This document shows, one piece after another, positions 2 to 10,635 of a DNA stretch of 64,000 nucleotides (position 1 is the stretch's first letter; each line of letters starts with the position of its first letter). The notes under the pieces are model-generated. The model did no database searches and was not told the origin of the DNA. It saw only the letters and a program-made list of their open reading frames with translations. A program made the translations under genes and the position numbers. The DNA lies in contig CAMYOD010000006.1 of assembly GCA_947259975.1 (NCBI GenBank), positions 102,482-166,481 on the forward strand. Direction: 5' to 3'. Origin of the DNA: an uncultured Gammaproteobacteria bacterium. Lineage in GTDB: Bacteria; Pseudomonadota; Gammaproteobacteria; HyVt-429.

Positions 2-1681
2 CGTGGCCCGGTAAGTGTCGCCAACGTCGCCGCGAGTACCGCCCTGGTGATCGGCGACCCGGTGAGTCATTTGATGGAGCTACCCGGGGCGCAGACGGAA
101 GCGGAGGCAACCGCGCGCGTGCTGGAAGAGTCCCGTTTCAGCGTGACCAGCCTGATTCGCCGCGCCGCCGCCGATGTGACCAGCGCGCTGTTCAATGGTG
201 ATTACAAGATCCTGCATTTGGCCGGTCACGGAATTTACGAGCCGGCGGATGCCGGAAAACCACCGCGAGCGGGAATGGTGCTGGGTAAGGATTGGCTACT
301 CACGCCCCAGGTCTTCGGGCAGATGCGTAGCTTGCCGGAGCTGGTGTTTATCAATTGCTGTCACCTGGGGTTCATTGAGGGTTTCCCGACCGGTGATTTC
401 GCCGCCAATGTGGCGACCAAGTTGATCGAGATGGGCGTACGCGCCGTCGTAGCCGCCGGTTGGGCCGTGGATGACGCCGCGGCGAACGATTTCGCGGAAG
501 TTTTTTATGACACGATGCTGGGTGGCGCCAGTTTCGGGCGTGCGGTCGAGGAAGCGCGACGCGTCTGTTACCACAAGCACTCTCATGTGAATACCTGGGG
601 TGCCTATCAGTGTTACGGCGACCCGGCTTATCGGTTGCGCATACAGGGCCGCGGGCGGCGTGACCACGCAGAGCCCATGCCGGTATCCACCGGGCAGGCG
701 ATTAAGGTCTTCGACAACATCGCCACTCGCGCCAAACGCGAGTCCGATGATCCGGAAAGCAAGGCGGCCCTCGAGCGGCGTCTGGACGCGATCGGTTCCG
801 CTCTACCGCGTGTGTGGCGACAGAATGCGCGACTATTCGCGGCAATGGCACGGGCCTACCGTGAGCTGGGCCGCTTCGAACAGGCTGTCGGGCATTACGA
901 AACGGCGCTTGCGATCGAAAAGGCCGATTGTGGGCTCGTGACCATCGAGCAACTGGCAAACCTGCGGGCGCGCTGGGCCGTCGAACTTGCGCAGCAGGGC
1001 AAAAACGCGCCTGACGGCGCATCCCCCGAGTCACTGATTCATAAATCCATTGCCGAGATCGAAGGCCTGGAAGCGATTGCGGGCGCAACCTCGGAGCGGG
1101 CAAGTCTCATTGCCAGCGCCAATAAGCGTTTGGCTCTGGTCGTGCGTACCCGAACCGCACTCATCGATGCATTGACGGCCATGGCGACACACTACAAGCG
1201 GGCGCACGAGATCGCGGTGGCACAAAATAATCTCGACACCTATCCGCTTAACAATTGGCTCATGGCCTGGCGTTTGTTGTCCATCACAGGCGTCCCGGTC
1301 GCGGCCTTGAAGGAGGTCGCGCCGGCCGAGTCGCTTGAGTCATTGCATGATGTCGCGCGGGCCACTGCTGAAAAGCGCGACAAACAGCAACCGAGTTTCT
1401 GGAACTGGATTGTGCCGGCCGAATGTTTGCTTGTCCGCCATTTAGGCGGTGCGCTTGCGCGTCATAAGGGTGAGATTTGCGATAGCTATCGCAAGGCATG
1501 GTCGGGGAAAGCCTCGACGCGGCAGAAGCGCTCCGTCCTCGACCAGTTTGTTTTTCTGGTCGATGCTTTGACCCGCCTGGCGCCTCGCCGACCGAGCAAA
1601 AGCAAGGCCGAACTACTTCGGCGCAGCGATCTTGCGGCGCTCAAATGGATTCATGATGAGCTGGAAAGCGATCTCGAATAA
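2..1681 (+). CDS. CHAT-domain (caspase-like) protease, 5' partial
   Basis: The frame is open to the left window edge, so the listed GTG at 47 is probably internal and the gene begins outside. In the ORF numbering from 47, residues about 1-205 form a CHAT domain, a caspase-fold cysteine protease unit. The catalytic His lies in HLAGHG (His61) and the Cys in INCCHLG (probably Cys105, the second Cys, by alignment to the usual LSAC pattern). The domain ends in the typical WGAYQCYGDP motif. Residues about 210-544 are helical, with a TPR-like stretch near ARAYRELGRFEQAVGHYETA. CHAT proteases act in cell-suicide and defence systems and in some signalling complexes. The gene converges on a TIR gene 46 bp away. 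Both catalytic residues are intact. Substrate and N-terminal partner domains are unknown from this window. Confidence 0.85.
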   Translation, partial: RGPVSVANVAASTALVIGDPVSHLMELPGAQTEAEATARVLEESRFSVTSLIRRAAADVTSALFNGDYKILHLAGHGIYEPADAGKPPRAGMVLGKDWLLTPQVFGQMRSLPELVFINCCHLGFIEGFPTGDFAANVATKLIEMGVRAVVAAGWAVDDAAANDFAEVFYDTMLGGASFGRAVEEARRVCYHKHSHVNTWGAYQCYGDPAYRLRIQGRGRRDHAEPMPVSTGQAIKVFDNIATRAKRESDDPESKAALERRLDAIGSALPRVWRQNARLFAAMARAYRELGRFEQAVGHYETALAIEKADCGLVTIEQLANLRARWAVELAQQGKNAPDGASPESLIHKSIAEIEGLEAIAGATSERASLIASANKRLALVVRTRTALIDALTAMATHYKRAHEIAVAQNNLDTYPLNNWLMAWRLLSITGVPVAALKEVAPAESLESLHDVARATAEKRDKQQPSFWNWIVPAECLLVRHLGGALARHKGEICDSYRKAWSGKASTRQKRSVLDQFVFLVDALTRLAPRRPSKSKAELLRRSDLAALKWIHDELESDLE

Positions 1682-1699
1682 TTGGTTCACGCATGGAGG

Positions 1700-1720
1700 C
1701 AATCGGCACTGATCCGATTG
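1700..1720. terminator. Hairpin between convergent CHAT and TIR genes
   Basis: A perfect 7-bp stem (CAATCGG / CCGATTG) with a 7-nt loop sits in the 46-bp gap between two converging stop codons. An outer GGTTCAC / GCGAACC pairing with one mismatch nests around it. The position suits a shared transcription end, but there is no clear T-run, so factor-independent termination is uncertain. Confidence 0.4.
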
Positions 1721-1727
1721 CGGAAAA

Positions 1728-2585
1728 TCAGCGAACCGTGGCTGCTATAGATGCGGTCAGACGCTCAATGTCACGCTGAAAGTCAGGGTCGGGCCGCAGC
1801 GGCATGCCGTTGCGAAACGCGAGATCGCGAATGCTTTCCGGAAGCGCGTCGGGGTCAGGGATCTCGATCCCATGAATCAGCAAGGGAATCACTGGAATTT
1901 TGCGCTTGAGTGCGACCTCGATCTCGATACGGACATGGTCGGTGGGGCTGTCCAGGCGGCGTTTCCCCGTGTTACTGGTCGCATTCAACCAGGTGCTCCC
2001 GATGACCTCGATGAACACGCGGCAGTCCGCCAGGGCCTGGTCCAGGTGTTCACGGAAATCAACGCCGAGAGGAATCGAATCCACATCCTTGAATACGGCA
2101 TCGTGACCGAAGTGTTGGGTCAGTTGATCATAGATTCGGCCGATCACATATTCACTGTCACTTCTGCGGTATGAAATGAAAATGGTACCCGGCGCGACCG
2201 CGTCACCCTTTGTGGAATCGGGTGATCGGGTTGGTCGTGGCTCATCGCGATCGGACTCCTGACTGACGCGGCCAGCCGCACCCGCTTCAAGCGGCCTTAG
2301 GGTCAAATAGTCGGTCGTCTGAAACGCACGCAAGATACCGTCCACCCCCTTGGGCGGTCCACAAAGCAGCTGCACCGCCTGTCCTTCGTTTACCTCTACG
2401 GGAAGCTCGGCAGACTTGTAGAAATCGATCTTGAGCTGAATTCGGTGCGCACCGGCGGGCACGTCGAGCGTAACGCGCTGGCCATTGCGAATATCATCCA
2501 CATGCTGGCCGTCGACGAAGACCTTGAAGGCGCGGGCCCGGTAATTGAGGCTGGATTCCCTGTTGATTACGACATGTCCCGACAT
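1728..2585 (-). CDS. TIR-domain protein with N-terminal PEGA-like domain
   Basis: I start at the internal ATG (MSGHVVINR), giving 285 aa; the 34 upstream residues of the ORF look non-coding. Residues about 15-80 resemble a PEGA-like beta-sandwich (VFVDGQHV, VPAGAHRIQLKI). A low-complexity charged linker spans about 100-130. Residues about 134-280 form a TIR domain of the bacterial SYRRxD type (IFISYRRSDS). A candidate NADase glutamate lies in RIEIEVAL (Glu221 or Glu223). Bacterial TIR domains commonly hydrolyse NAD+ or make cyclic ADP-ribose signals in antiviral defence; that role here is inferred. No membrane segment is seen. The gene faces the CHAT protease gene and lies just inside the tRNA-Phe boundary. 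Confidence 0.82.
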   Translation of the reverse strand: MSGHVVINRESSLNYRARAFKVFVDGQHVDDIRNGQRVTLDVPAGAHRIQLKIDFYKSAELPVEVNEGQAVQLLCGPPKGVDGILRAFQTTDYLTLRPLEAGAAGRVSQESDRDEPRPTRSPDSTKGDAVAPGTIFISYRRSDSEYVIGRIYDQLTQHFGHDAVFKDVDSIPLGVDFREHLDQALADCRVFIEVIGSTWLNATSNTGKRRLDSPTDHVRIEIEVALKRKIPVIPLLIHGIEIPDPDALPESIRDLAFRNGMPLRPDPDFQRDIERLTASIAATVR

Positions 2586-2921
2586 TGAAGAGCACTCGCA
2601 CGAGTCGCTGATAAAATAGGGTTGTGCGTGGTGGAAGTATATCGAATTCTCATTTATGCGTCCGCCGGCAAACGCGGTCCGGATCAAGCGCGAAGATCAG
2701 AGATGGCTGCGCGATATATGATACTGTGCGCTGCACCGTGTGGCTTGCGACGCAGGGCGACGTCGGGAAAATGGTGGCCAGGGACGACGCGCAGGGATGC
2801 GCTAGTGTCGCGAGAGGCCATGGATGGCCGAAGCGACCAGAAGTCCTTTTAGTGCAGTTCGATTCTGGGCGAATCAAACCCACGGCGCGGGTTTATGATA
2901 CTGAATTGGCTGCTAGGAAAA
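2586..2921. other. Gene-free boundary segment with tRNA-Phe scars
   Basis: This 336-bp stretch holds no credible gene; the listed short ORFs show no recognisable features. It contains a second copy of the last bases of tRNA-Phe at 2766-2785. It also has, at 2854-2867, a 14-bp inverted copy of the tRNA T-arm (GCAGTTCGATTCTG). It looks like decayed junction DNA between an accessory island and core genes. Confidence 0.5.
2766..2785 (-). repeat. Direct repeat of tRNA-Phe 3' end (att-like)
   Basis: Twenty bases here are identical to 2916-2935, which cover the CCA end and acceptor stem of the intact tRNA-Phe. Integrases that use tRNA genes usually leave such a copy of the tRNA 3' end at the far side of the insert. 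The two copies are only 150 bp apart, so this would be a leftover attachment site or a remnant of a lost tandem tRNA copy. No integrase gene is in the window. Confidence 0.5.
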
Positions 2922-3136: not shown

Positions 3137-3160
3137 CCGACTGAGCTACCTGGCCATTAG
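3137..3160 (-). repeat. Copy of tRNA-Phe 5' end
   Basis: These 24 bases match 2979-3002, which cover the first 19 nt of the intact tRNA-Phe plus 5 bp of upstream flank. On the minus strand it lies upstream of the intact tRNA, so it is a truncated second tRNA start. Similarity continues into the flank (ATCTT). A tandem tRNA-Phe duplication that later lost its body would explain it. Confidence 0.6.
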
Positions 3161-8709: not shown

Positions 8710-10635
8710 TCAGTCCGAATCGTCTTCTGGCAGGTCGTGCCCTTCGTACAGCTCATCCACGATATGGGCGTATTTGCTCAGAATTTCCTTACGTCGCAAC
8801 TTGAGGGTGGGGGTGAGCATTTCGTTCTCGACGGTCCAGGGTTCGGCAATCACCTCGGCCTGGTAGACGTTCGCGTAGCCGGGAAAATCCTCCAGCTGCC
8901 TGGCGATGCGTTCGAGCATCAGGTTCTGCACGGTCTCATCTTGCGCGCTGTCTACGGCCTCCGCGCCAAGGCCCTGCGACGCTGCCAGCGTGCTCCATTC
9001 TTCCGGATTGAGTACCACGAGCGCACCCAGGTAGGGCTTGCCTTCGCCGACAATCATCACCTGCTGGAACAAGGGGTCCTCCGCCACCGCCATCTCAAGG
9101 TCGGCGGGCGGCACTTTCTCGCCGTTGGCGAGCACCAGTATCTCTTTCAGACGACCGGTAATATAGACATGCCCGTCGTCGAGCCGTGCCTGATCGCCGG
9201 TATGCAGCCAGCCGTCCCGGTCGATCGCCCGGTAGCTCGCCTTGTGATTGTTCCAATAACCCAGCATGACACCGGGGCTGCGTACCAATAGTTCGTTGTC
9301 TTCGCCGATGCGGACTTCCACGTCCTGCAACGGCAGACCGACGCTCTTCGGGTCATTGTCCTCCAGGGGATTTACGCTGATCACCGGACTGGATTCGGTA
9401 AGCCCATAACCCTGTTGCATGGGCAGGCCCAGCGCAAGAAATGTGCGCGCGACGGTGAATGACAAGGGCGCACCACCACAGACAATGCAGCGCAAGCGAC
9501 CGCCGAAGCGCTCGCGCACTTTACGGGCCACGAGTCGATCGAGGATCGGCCACAGCAATGGGGGCGTCGCGTCCGGGCCGCGACGTTGTTTGCGCTTGAA
9601 ATACTTCCAGCCGGTCGCGATCGCAAGGCGAAAGATCGCGCGGCTGACGAACGAACCTTCCTTCAATCGTGTCATCAGCTTCGCGTAGACCCGCTCAAAG
9701 ATGCGCGGTACCGAAATCAGGCCGGTGGGCCGTAGTGTGAGCATGTCTTCGGCAAGGTATGAGATGGAGCGCGCGTGCGCGACTGCGGCACCGGCCATCA
9801 TGGGCAGGTAATAGCCCACGGTGCGCTCGAAGGTGTGCGATAAGGGCAGAAACGACAAAAACAGATCATGCGGGTAAATCATGATGCTCTGCAGTCCACT
9901 GAAAGCGTTCCAGACGATATTGCGGTGGCTGAGCATCACGCCCTTTGGGCGCCCGGTGGTCCCGGAGGTGTAAACGATGGTCGCGAGTGCGTCGGGGTCA
10001 TTGTTGGTATTGATGAGGCGCGCTTCGGCCGGCAGCCAATCACCGATACAGTGATGCGGTAGCGGCTTGTCATCGCCGGGAATCGGTTCGAGTGTCACGA
10101 CCCGCAGCAACTCGTCGAGTTCCTCATGCGACTCACACAAAGCCTGCCACTGTTCCTCGCCCCGTATAAGCAGTAGGCGCACACCCGCATCCTGCAGGAT
10201 GAAAACAATATTGTCGGCGCGGTCGTTGTAATATAGTGGGACCACGACGAGGCCAAGGCCCAGCGCGGCCTGGTCGAACATCACCCACTCTTTGCAGTTG
10301 TGTAATAGCACGGCGACACGATCGCCTCGTTCGAGACCCTCCTTAATAAGTGCGGCCTGCCAGCGCGCGACTTCCGCCGCCATCTGTGACCAGGACAGAC
10401 TACGCCAGAGGCAGCTCTGCTCATCGAAATAGCGGTAGGCCGCGGTATCAGGGCTTCGCCGTACACGTTCCCTGAACAGCGCATCAAGTGTCGGCGCCTG
10501 TGCGATACTGATAACGTCCGCACCCACTGCATCGCCGGCAACCGCCATGGCTTGTGGACGTGACGGCACGCGACCGGCATCCTTGCGCTGCAGGGCCGGG
10601 CTCAAAGCGGTCGCGATATCAGGCAGTGATCTCAA
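8710..10635 (-). CDS. Long-chain acyl-CoA synthetase (AMP-binding)
   Basis: The enzyme activates fatty acids to acyl-CoA with ATP. The 641-aa ANL-family protein shows the P-loop YTSGTTGRPKGVM, the QGYGLTESSPV motif, the GDQARLDDG motif and the C-terminal GRLKEILVLANGEKVPP hinge with a later catalytic-lysine region. It matches the FadD15-like long-chain AMP ligases that have a long middle insert. Its start overlaps the FadJ-like stop by 4 bp, so it is the third gene of a thiolase-FadJ-synthetase operon. Confidence 0.93.
   Translation of the reverse strand: MRSLPDIATALSPALQRKDAGRVPSRPQAMAVAGDAVGADVISIAQAPTLDALFRERVRRSPDTAAYRYFDEQSCLWRSLSWSQMAAEVARWQAALIKEGLERGDRVAVLLHNCKEWVMFDQAALGLGLVVVPLYYNDRADNIVFILQDAGVRLLLIRGEEQWQALCESHEELDELLRVVTLEPIPGDDKPLPHHCIGDWLPAEARLINTNNDPDALATIVYTSGTTGRPKGVMLSHRNIVWNAFSGLQSIMIYPHDLFLSFLPLSHTFERTVGYYLPMMAGAAVAHARSISYLAEDMLTLRPTGLISVPRIFERVYAKLMTRLKEGSFVSRAIFRLAIATGWKYFKRKQRRGPDATPPLLWPILDRLVARKVRERFGGRLRCIVCGGAPLSFTVARTFLALGLPMQQGYGLTESSPVISVNPLEDNDPKSVGLPLQDVEVRIGEDNELLVRSPGVMLGYWNNHKASYRAIDRDGWLHTGDQARLDDGHVYITGRLKEILVLANGEKVPPADLEMAVAEDPLFQQVMIVGEGKPYLGALVVLNPEEWSTLAASQGLGAEAVDSAQDETVQNLMLERIARQLEDFPGYANVYQAEVIAEPWTVENEMLTPTLKLRRKEILSKYAHIVDELYEGHDLPEDDSD

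Follow-up and report, generated by a model that had tools for sequence, protein, structure and literature searches.

Do a CHAT protease gene and a TIR gene that converge in the genome of an uncultured gammaproteobacterium encode a cell-suicide module, or do they lie side by side by chance? The window, as we call the whole 64,000-nt stretch of DNA analyzed here (G000:C6:102482–166481), begins with a CHAT frame at 2–1681 (+) and a TIR gene at 1728–2585 (−), separated by 46 bp and near a tRNA-Phe gene. The initial annotation described this convergent pair, and both frames prove to be real (Pfam CHAT, 2.3e-26 on the window frame alone; TIR_2, 8.5e-14). The gap between them (1682–1727) holds an 8-bp hairpin, GCAATCGG/CCGATTGC, and by its sequence could be a bidirectional transcription end.

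A Five-Domain Hub Protein

The CHAT gene was seen to run off the left edge of the window. We read the left flank from the same assembly and found the complete gene (L002:11823–17162, equivalent to G000:C6:98823–104162), which starts ~3.66 kb left of the window and encodes a protein of 1,779 aa that we call the hub; upstream of it, in the same orientation, lies a gene for an astacin-like metalloprotease. The window frame, open leftward, is the C-terminal 559 aa of the hub (residues 1221–1779). The CHAT domain itself is confirmed, but the frame named after it covers just the last third of an enzyme with five domains. The domains are a DUF7379 alpha/beta-hydrolase (residues 180–276; Pfam, 1.2e-35), an LCAT-like alpha/beta-hydrolase (583–719; 5e-11) with profile kinship to group XV phospholipase A2 (PLA2G15) and LCAT, a macro-fold domain, CHAT (1156–1427; 4.2e-32 on the full protein), and TPR-S (“TPR-Sensor”; PF20308; 1512–1641), which matches with 1.3e-7 on the full protein and 7.1e-9 on the window frame and scores 36.6 bits, above the curated cutoff of 27.6. 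On the plus strand of the window, CHAT spans 2–622, its first ~65 residues lying further left, and the TPR/TPR-S region with the C-terminal helices spans 830–1681 (Pfam TPR-S match, 875–1264).

The CHAT domain carries the His-Cys dyad of CHAT proteases (PF12770), His1296 at nt 227–229 and Cys1340 at nt 359–361 (Cys105 in the initial annotation). Across an alignment of 81 hubs, His1296 is found in 81/81 and Cys1340 in 80/81, the nucleophile Ser251 in 81/81, and the catalytic Ser623 in 78/81, so all three enzymatic centers look maintained. TPR-S is matched by 48 of 50 hub homologs. Structure prediction, proposed at the outset for both proteins, gave for the CHAT side a CHAT–TPR-S model (pLDDT 90) with a helical-repeat TPR region, whose top PDB fold match is the activated SAVED-CHAT (8tl0; E 1.1e-4), followed by weaker matches to ASK1 and the Craspase TPR-CHAT (8d9f, 8d9g). 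The corresponding profile, searched against PDB sequences, retrieved chiefly generic TPR proteins and one weak CHAT match. TPR-S has reportedly been proposed to occur in animal ASK kinases as well, which act downstream of SARM1/TIR-1.

The macro-fold domain lies between the LCAT part and CHAT and has no Pfam annotation in the window hub. At this region, Peptidase_M17_N is matched in 27 of 44 hub homologs (best 2.2e-8), and a PDB profile search finds an aminopeptidase N-domain. For the fold model we used L067, a homolog whose overall identity to the window hub is 44% in the best segment; this confident AlphaFold model reaches a pLDDT of about 97 over residues 41–250, and Foldseek matches it to PDB macro domains, among them macroH2A1.1, PARP14, and MACROD2 (E ~1e-6 to 1e-5; target TM up to 0.74). 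The hub is thus predicted from its homolog to contain a macro fold of the macro/M17_N superfamily, in a region that can be aligned throughout the hub family. Position 899, N or D in 74/81 hubs and N in the window hub, resembles, by sequence, the Asp with which macro domains contact adenine; together with a GSGAGG-like loop, this residue is at most suggestive of ADP-ribose binding.

The TIR Protein

The TIR gene encodes 285 aa from an ATG at 2585, a start supported by alignment with homolog L063, and combines an N-terminal beta-rich domain with a TIR_2 domain (1806–2183, −), FISYRRSD lying at residues 136–143. Glu221 (nt 1923–1925) aligns with the catalytic Glu of the SARM1 TIR, giving the protein the sequence signature of a TIR NADase, and this Glu is conserved in the hub-associated TIRs. 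Judged by these alignments, catalytic residues are kept in both proteins, as the initial annotation held. The N-terminal domain, described there as PEGA-like, is indeed beta-rich and PEGA/DUF2846-like (2367–2579, −), but the resemblance is weak, both matches falling below the cutoff (PEGA, E = 0.028; DUF2846, 8e-5). The NCBIfam Thoeris model ThcB4 also matches the TIR protein below threshold (38.7 bits vs. a cutoff of 220).

No second TIR_2 match occurs in the source genome. Among full-length relatives, the one closest to this PEGA-TIR is in L063; it lies near a GGDEF-EAL gene with no hub beside it, and a search of its genome (G350) returned no hub match. Phylum-wide and plasmid searches for other PEGA-TIRs gave matches to the TIR domain only. 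The L063 relative (L063:8272–9300) bears a zinc ribbon at its C terminus, and its gene overlaps another zinc-ribbon gene (9287–9664), upstream of which the GGDEF-EAL gene is located.

A Synteny Break at tRNA-Phe

The tRNA-Phe (GAA) gene expected from the initial annotation is present at 2922–2997 (−), and is not part of the hub/TIR system; the “island edge” placed there is unsupported. Scanning the left-flank genes revealed no integrase, the 40 kb searched showed no distal tRNA-Phe 3′ repeat or att site, and GC content is ordinary (hub, 0.61; TIR, 0.58; window, 0.60). On the first two counts, the parts searched lack the marks of a tRNA-integrated mobile island. The only duplications of the tRNA ends in these 40 kb are 20–24-bp pieces about 150 bp from the tRNA gene: a 20-bp copy of the 3′ end (window 2766–2785) and an approximately 24-bp copy of the 5′ end (3137–3160) flank it, as if they were leftovers of a former tandem tRNA-Phe array. 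The relative G002 conserves the tRNA-Phe/YggX/MutY block and has, beyond the tRNA, zero matches to L002 genes within 5 kb; on this comparison, the junction is a synteny break or variable spot rather than a demonstrated island.

Recurrence of the Hub–TIR Association

The initial annotation would have counted against the pair its failure to recur in other genomes; TIR genes do recur beside this CHAT family. Of 369 genomes of the class, 14 carry a hub and 17 a relative of the window TIR; 9, the source genome included, have both, and neither was found in the three family relatives. In G110 and G342, a TIR gene directly follows the hub in the same orientation, and in G133 a more distant TIR does likewise. 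Scanning GTDB, we identified 80 hub loci, labeled Proteobacteria, Desulfuromonadales, Acidobacteria, Nitrospira, Anaerolineales, Bacteroidota, and others, and plasmid copies of the hub exist. A TIR lies within 1.5 kb of the hub or is fused to it in 17/80 of these loci, three of them fusions in which the TIR is the hub C terminus itself (L068, L069, and L073). All 17 near TIR domains are codirectional with the hub, whereas the window TIR is convergent.

TIR domains around the hubs were detected with an iterated profile built for this analysis, from which their E-values come. Their density around the 80 hubs is 77/Mb within 1.5 kb, 5/Mb at 1.5–3 kb, and 12–18/Mb (about 16) at 3–8 kb, against a class background of ~0.2/Mb (about 150 in 229 genomes). 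The excess near the hub over the 3–8-kb flanks has a Poisson p of ~1e-7, indicative only because the TIRs were called with this iterated profile and the loci are phylogenetically nonindependent (L118 and L136 are both Methyloversatilis, and the three fusions are close relatives). The hub-associated TIRs fall into several different subfamilies in our alignment, so the association looks repeatedly acquired rather than inherited once. On a Rhizobium plasmid (CP050083.1; L148), a shorter CHAT relative has annotated TIR-domain proteins of 1,322 and 1,473 aa on either side.

Other Partner Genes

Proteases are further partners of the hub, and these genes, astacin-like here and caspase in 24/80 GTDB loci, belong to its picture. 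A survey of hubs lacking a TIR likewise gave caspase, M15, astacin, and patatin genes as partners. Caspase genes also stand beside the hub in L052, L053, and L056. The 45 codirectional upstream neighbors scanned include 17 caspases, 4 TIRs, and 2 patatins, and the 45 downstream neighbors 9 TIRs and 6 M15 peptidases. Caspase and TIR occur together in 5 GTDB loci, with ~5.1 expected under independence (17 × 24/80). The astacin-like gene upstream of the window hub encodes HEFGHMIGLAHE; relatives of it precede the hub in L071 and follow hub and TIR, in that order, in G110, so that hub, TIR, and astacin occur together in G110, of the same class, as in the source genome. Astacin-like genes are also found in genomes without a hub.

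Several other neighbors were recorded. A reprolysin-like (M12B) metalloprotease gene (L002:8427–10292) directly precedes the astacin-like gene, so that two metalloprotease genes lead up to the hub. A Cache-domain Ser/Thr kinase gene followed by a LysM/FecR gene lies upstream of the hub region (L002:4328–6364), and a kinase gene (33.5% identity) is also found upstream of the G110 hub locus (L053:14414–15841). Directly downstream of the hub in L103, L104, L106, L117, L128, L131, and L136, we find seven related proteins of 189–286 aa, often with a 4-bp overlap with the hub stop, that are likely Peptidase_M15_3 matches.

Proposed Mechanism and Alternatives

The hub and its TIR are probably a real suicide-signaling module, related to yet distinct from known TIR–protease defense systems. 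The single most likely reading, at a probability of about 0.42, is a TIR-linked suicide module, probably antiphage, built on the giant hub, with signaling from TIR to hub. Upon infection or stress, the TIR protein would hydrolyze NAD+ and yield an ADP-ribose-type product, which the TPR-S domain, the macro-fold domain, or both would bind; the ligand-bound hub would then activate both its CHAT protease and its lipase-like domains and damage the cell, and accessory proteases (astacin-like here, caspases elsewhere) could serve as further effectors. A TIR-derived ligand is a concrete idea because the CHAT protein has a macro-fold domain as well as a TPR-S sensor, and TIR-to-hub signaling is favored by these domains together with the TIR enrichment and fusions and the precedent of type IV Thoeris. 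It is weakened by the convergence of the window TIR and by its closest relative, which is not beside a hub and comes from a genome with no hub match. Moreover, ~79% of hub loci have no nearby TIR, so a TIR cannot be the sole activator.

The direction of signaling could tentatively be reversed, with the TIR as one of several interchangeable effectors: the hub CHAT would cleave or recruit a partner (TIR, caspase, astacin- or M15-type peptidase, or patatin), the partner would kill, and hub would act on TIR with no nucleotide signal. The mixed set of genes found upstream (caspase, patatin, and TIR) and downstream (TIR and M15) would suit such arming, with which the CHAT–TIR fusions are also compatible, and the CHAT protease Csx29 of Craspase cleaves a partner protein once activated (PMC10028731). 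Against it, TPR-S in nearly all hubs and a macro-fold region alignable across the family, both associated with nucleotides or ADP-ribose, argue for an incoming ligand.

We think it unlikely that the window TIR is a chance neighbor in a variable chromosomal region and that the astacin-like protease is the sole working partner of the hub. The convergent orientation, a PEGA-like domain of its own, and a nearest relative located elsewhere would all be consistent with chance, as would the codirectional astacin–hub arrangement that recurs in L071; but with a class background of only ~0.2 TIRs per Mb, the single TIR_2 match of the genome lies 46 bp from a hub of a TIR-enriched family, and the trio of hub, TIR, and astacin recurs in G110. 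It is highly improbable that the hub is a housekeeping lipase/peptidase for lipid or envelope maintenance, with TIR proximity reflecting general accessory-gene clustering: its two lipase-like domains and flanks at 3–8 kb that also hold more TIRs than the class background would fit, but its patchy spread (14/369 class genomes, 0/3 family relatives), plasmid copies, and TIR fusions speak against it.

The window TIR would belong to this module under the TIR-to-hub reading, which we retain as the leading one. A stronger version, in which an undescribed TIR-triggered death complex couples two candidate receptors for ADP-ribose-type ligands in an ~1,800-aa hub, the macro fold and TPR-S, to two lipases and CHAT, with plug-in TIRs and accessory proteases in many phyla, appears rather doubtful. 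The hub makes the question specific: does TPR-S or the macro fold bind an ADP-ribose derivative, and which one?

Comparison with Known Systems

Burroughs and Aravind reportedly predicted in 2020 that TPR-S, in neighborhoods rich in TIRs and proteases, senses signals derived from NAD+. The hub resembles these TPR-S conflict systems (PF20308; Burroughs and Aravind 2020, as cited by PMC8195603) in carrying TPR-S in such neighborhoods. SAVED-CHAT (8tl0), the best fold match, likewise couples CHAT to a ligand sensor, with SAVED replaced in the hub by TPR-S and the macro fold. Craspase shares a TPR region and a CHAT protease (Csx29 TPR-CHAT; PMC10028731); this type III-E system is RNA guided with a Cas7-11/gRAMP partner, and neither that nor another CRISPR partner was recognized beside the hub among the ORFs and Pfam-scanned neighbors. 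Type II Thoeris also pairs a TIR gene with a macro-domain receptor, a TM-macro effector (PMC11204291, PMC12847820), whereas here there is no TM-macro effector and the macro fold is internal to a CHAT/lipase enzyme.

The nearest precedent in proposed logic is type IV Thoeris, in which, as summarized in PMC12847820 (Rousset 2025), a TIR NADase gene is paired with a caspase-fold protease that TIR-made N7-cADPR activates. Compared with that summary, the protease here is a CHAT domain within an ~1,800-aa hub that also has two hydrolases, a macro fold, and TPR-S; the window pair is convergent rather than one operon of TIR and effector, and many hubs have no TIR. No Thoeris family in NCBIfam, which may hold no type IV effector model, matched the hub, and no Thoeris model of a PADLOC version that predates type IV matched its CHAT part. 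In the literature searched, to which the 2020 survey of Burroughs and Aravind did not belong, we found no description of a hub built this way with a macro fold inside it. TIR–protease signaling is already known, and this architecture may be a new variant of it, or one described earlier; if the TIR-to-hub reading is true, TIR-to-protease immune signaling is not confined to a small system of two genes but reaches a large, multioutput enzyme of many phyla.
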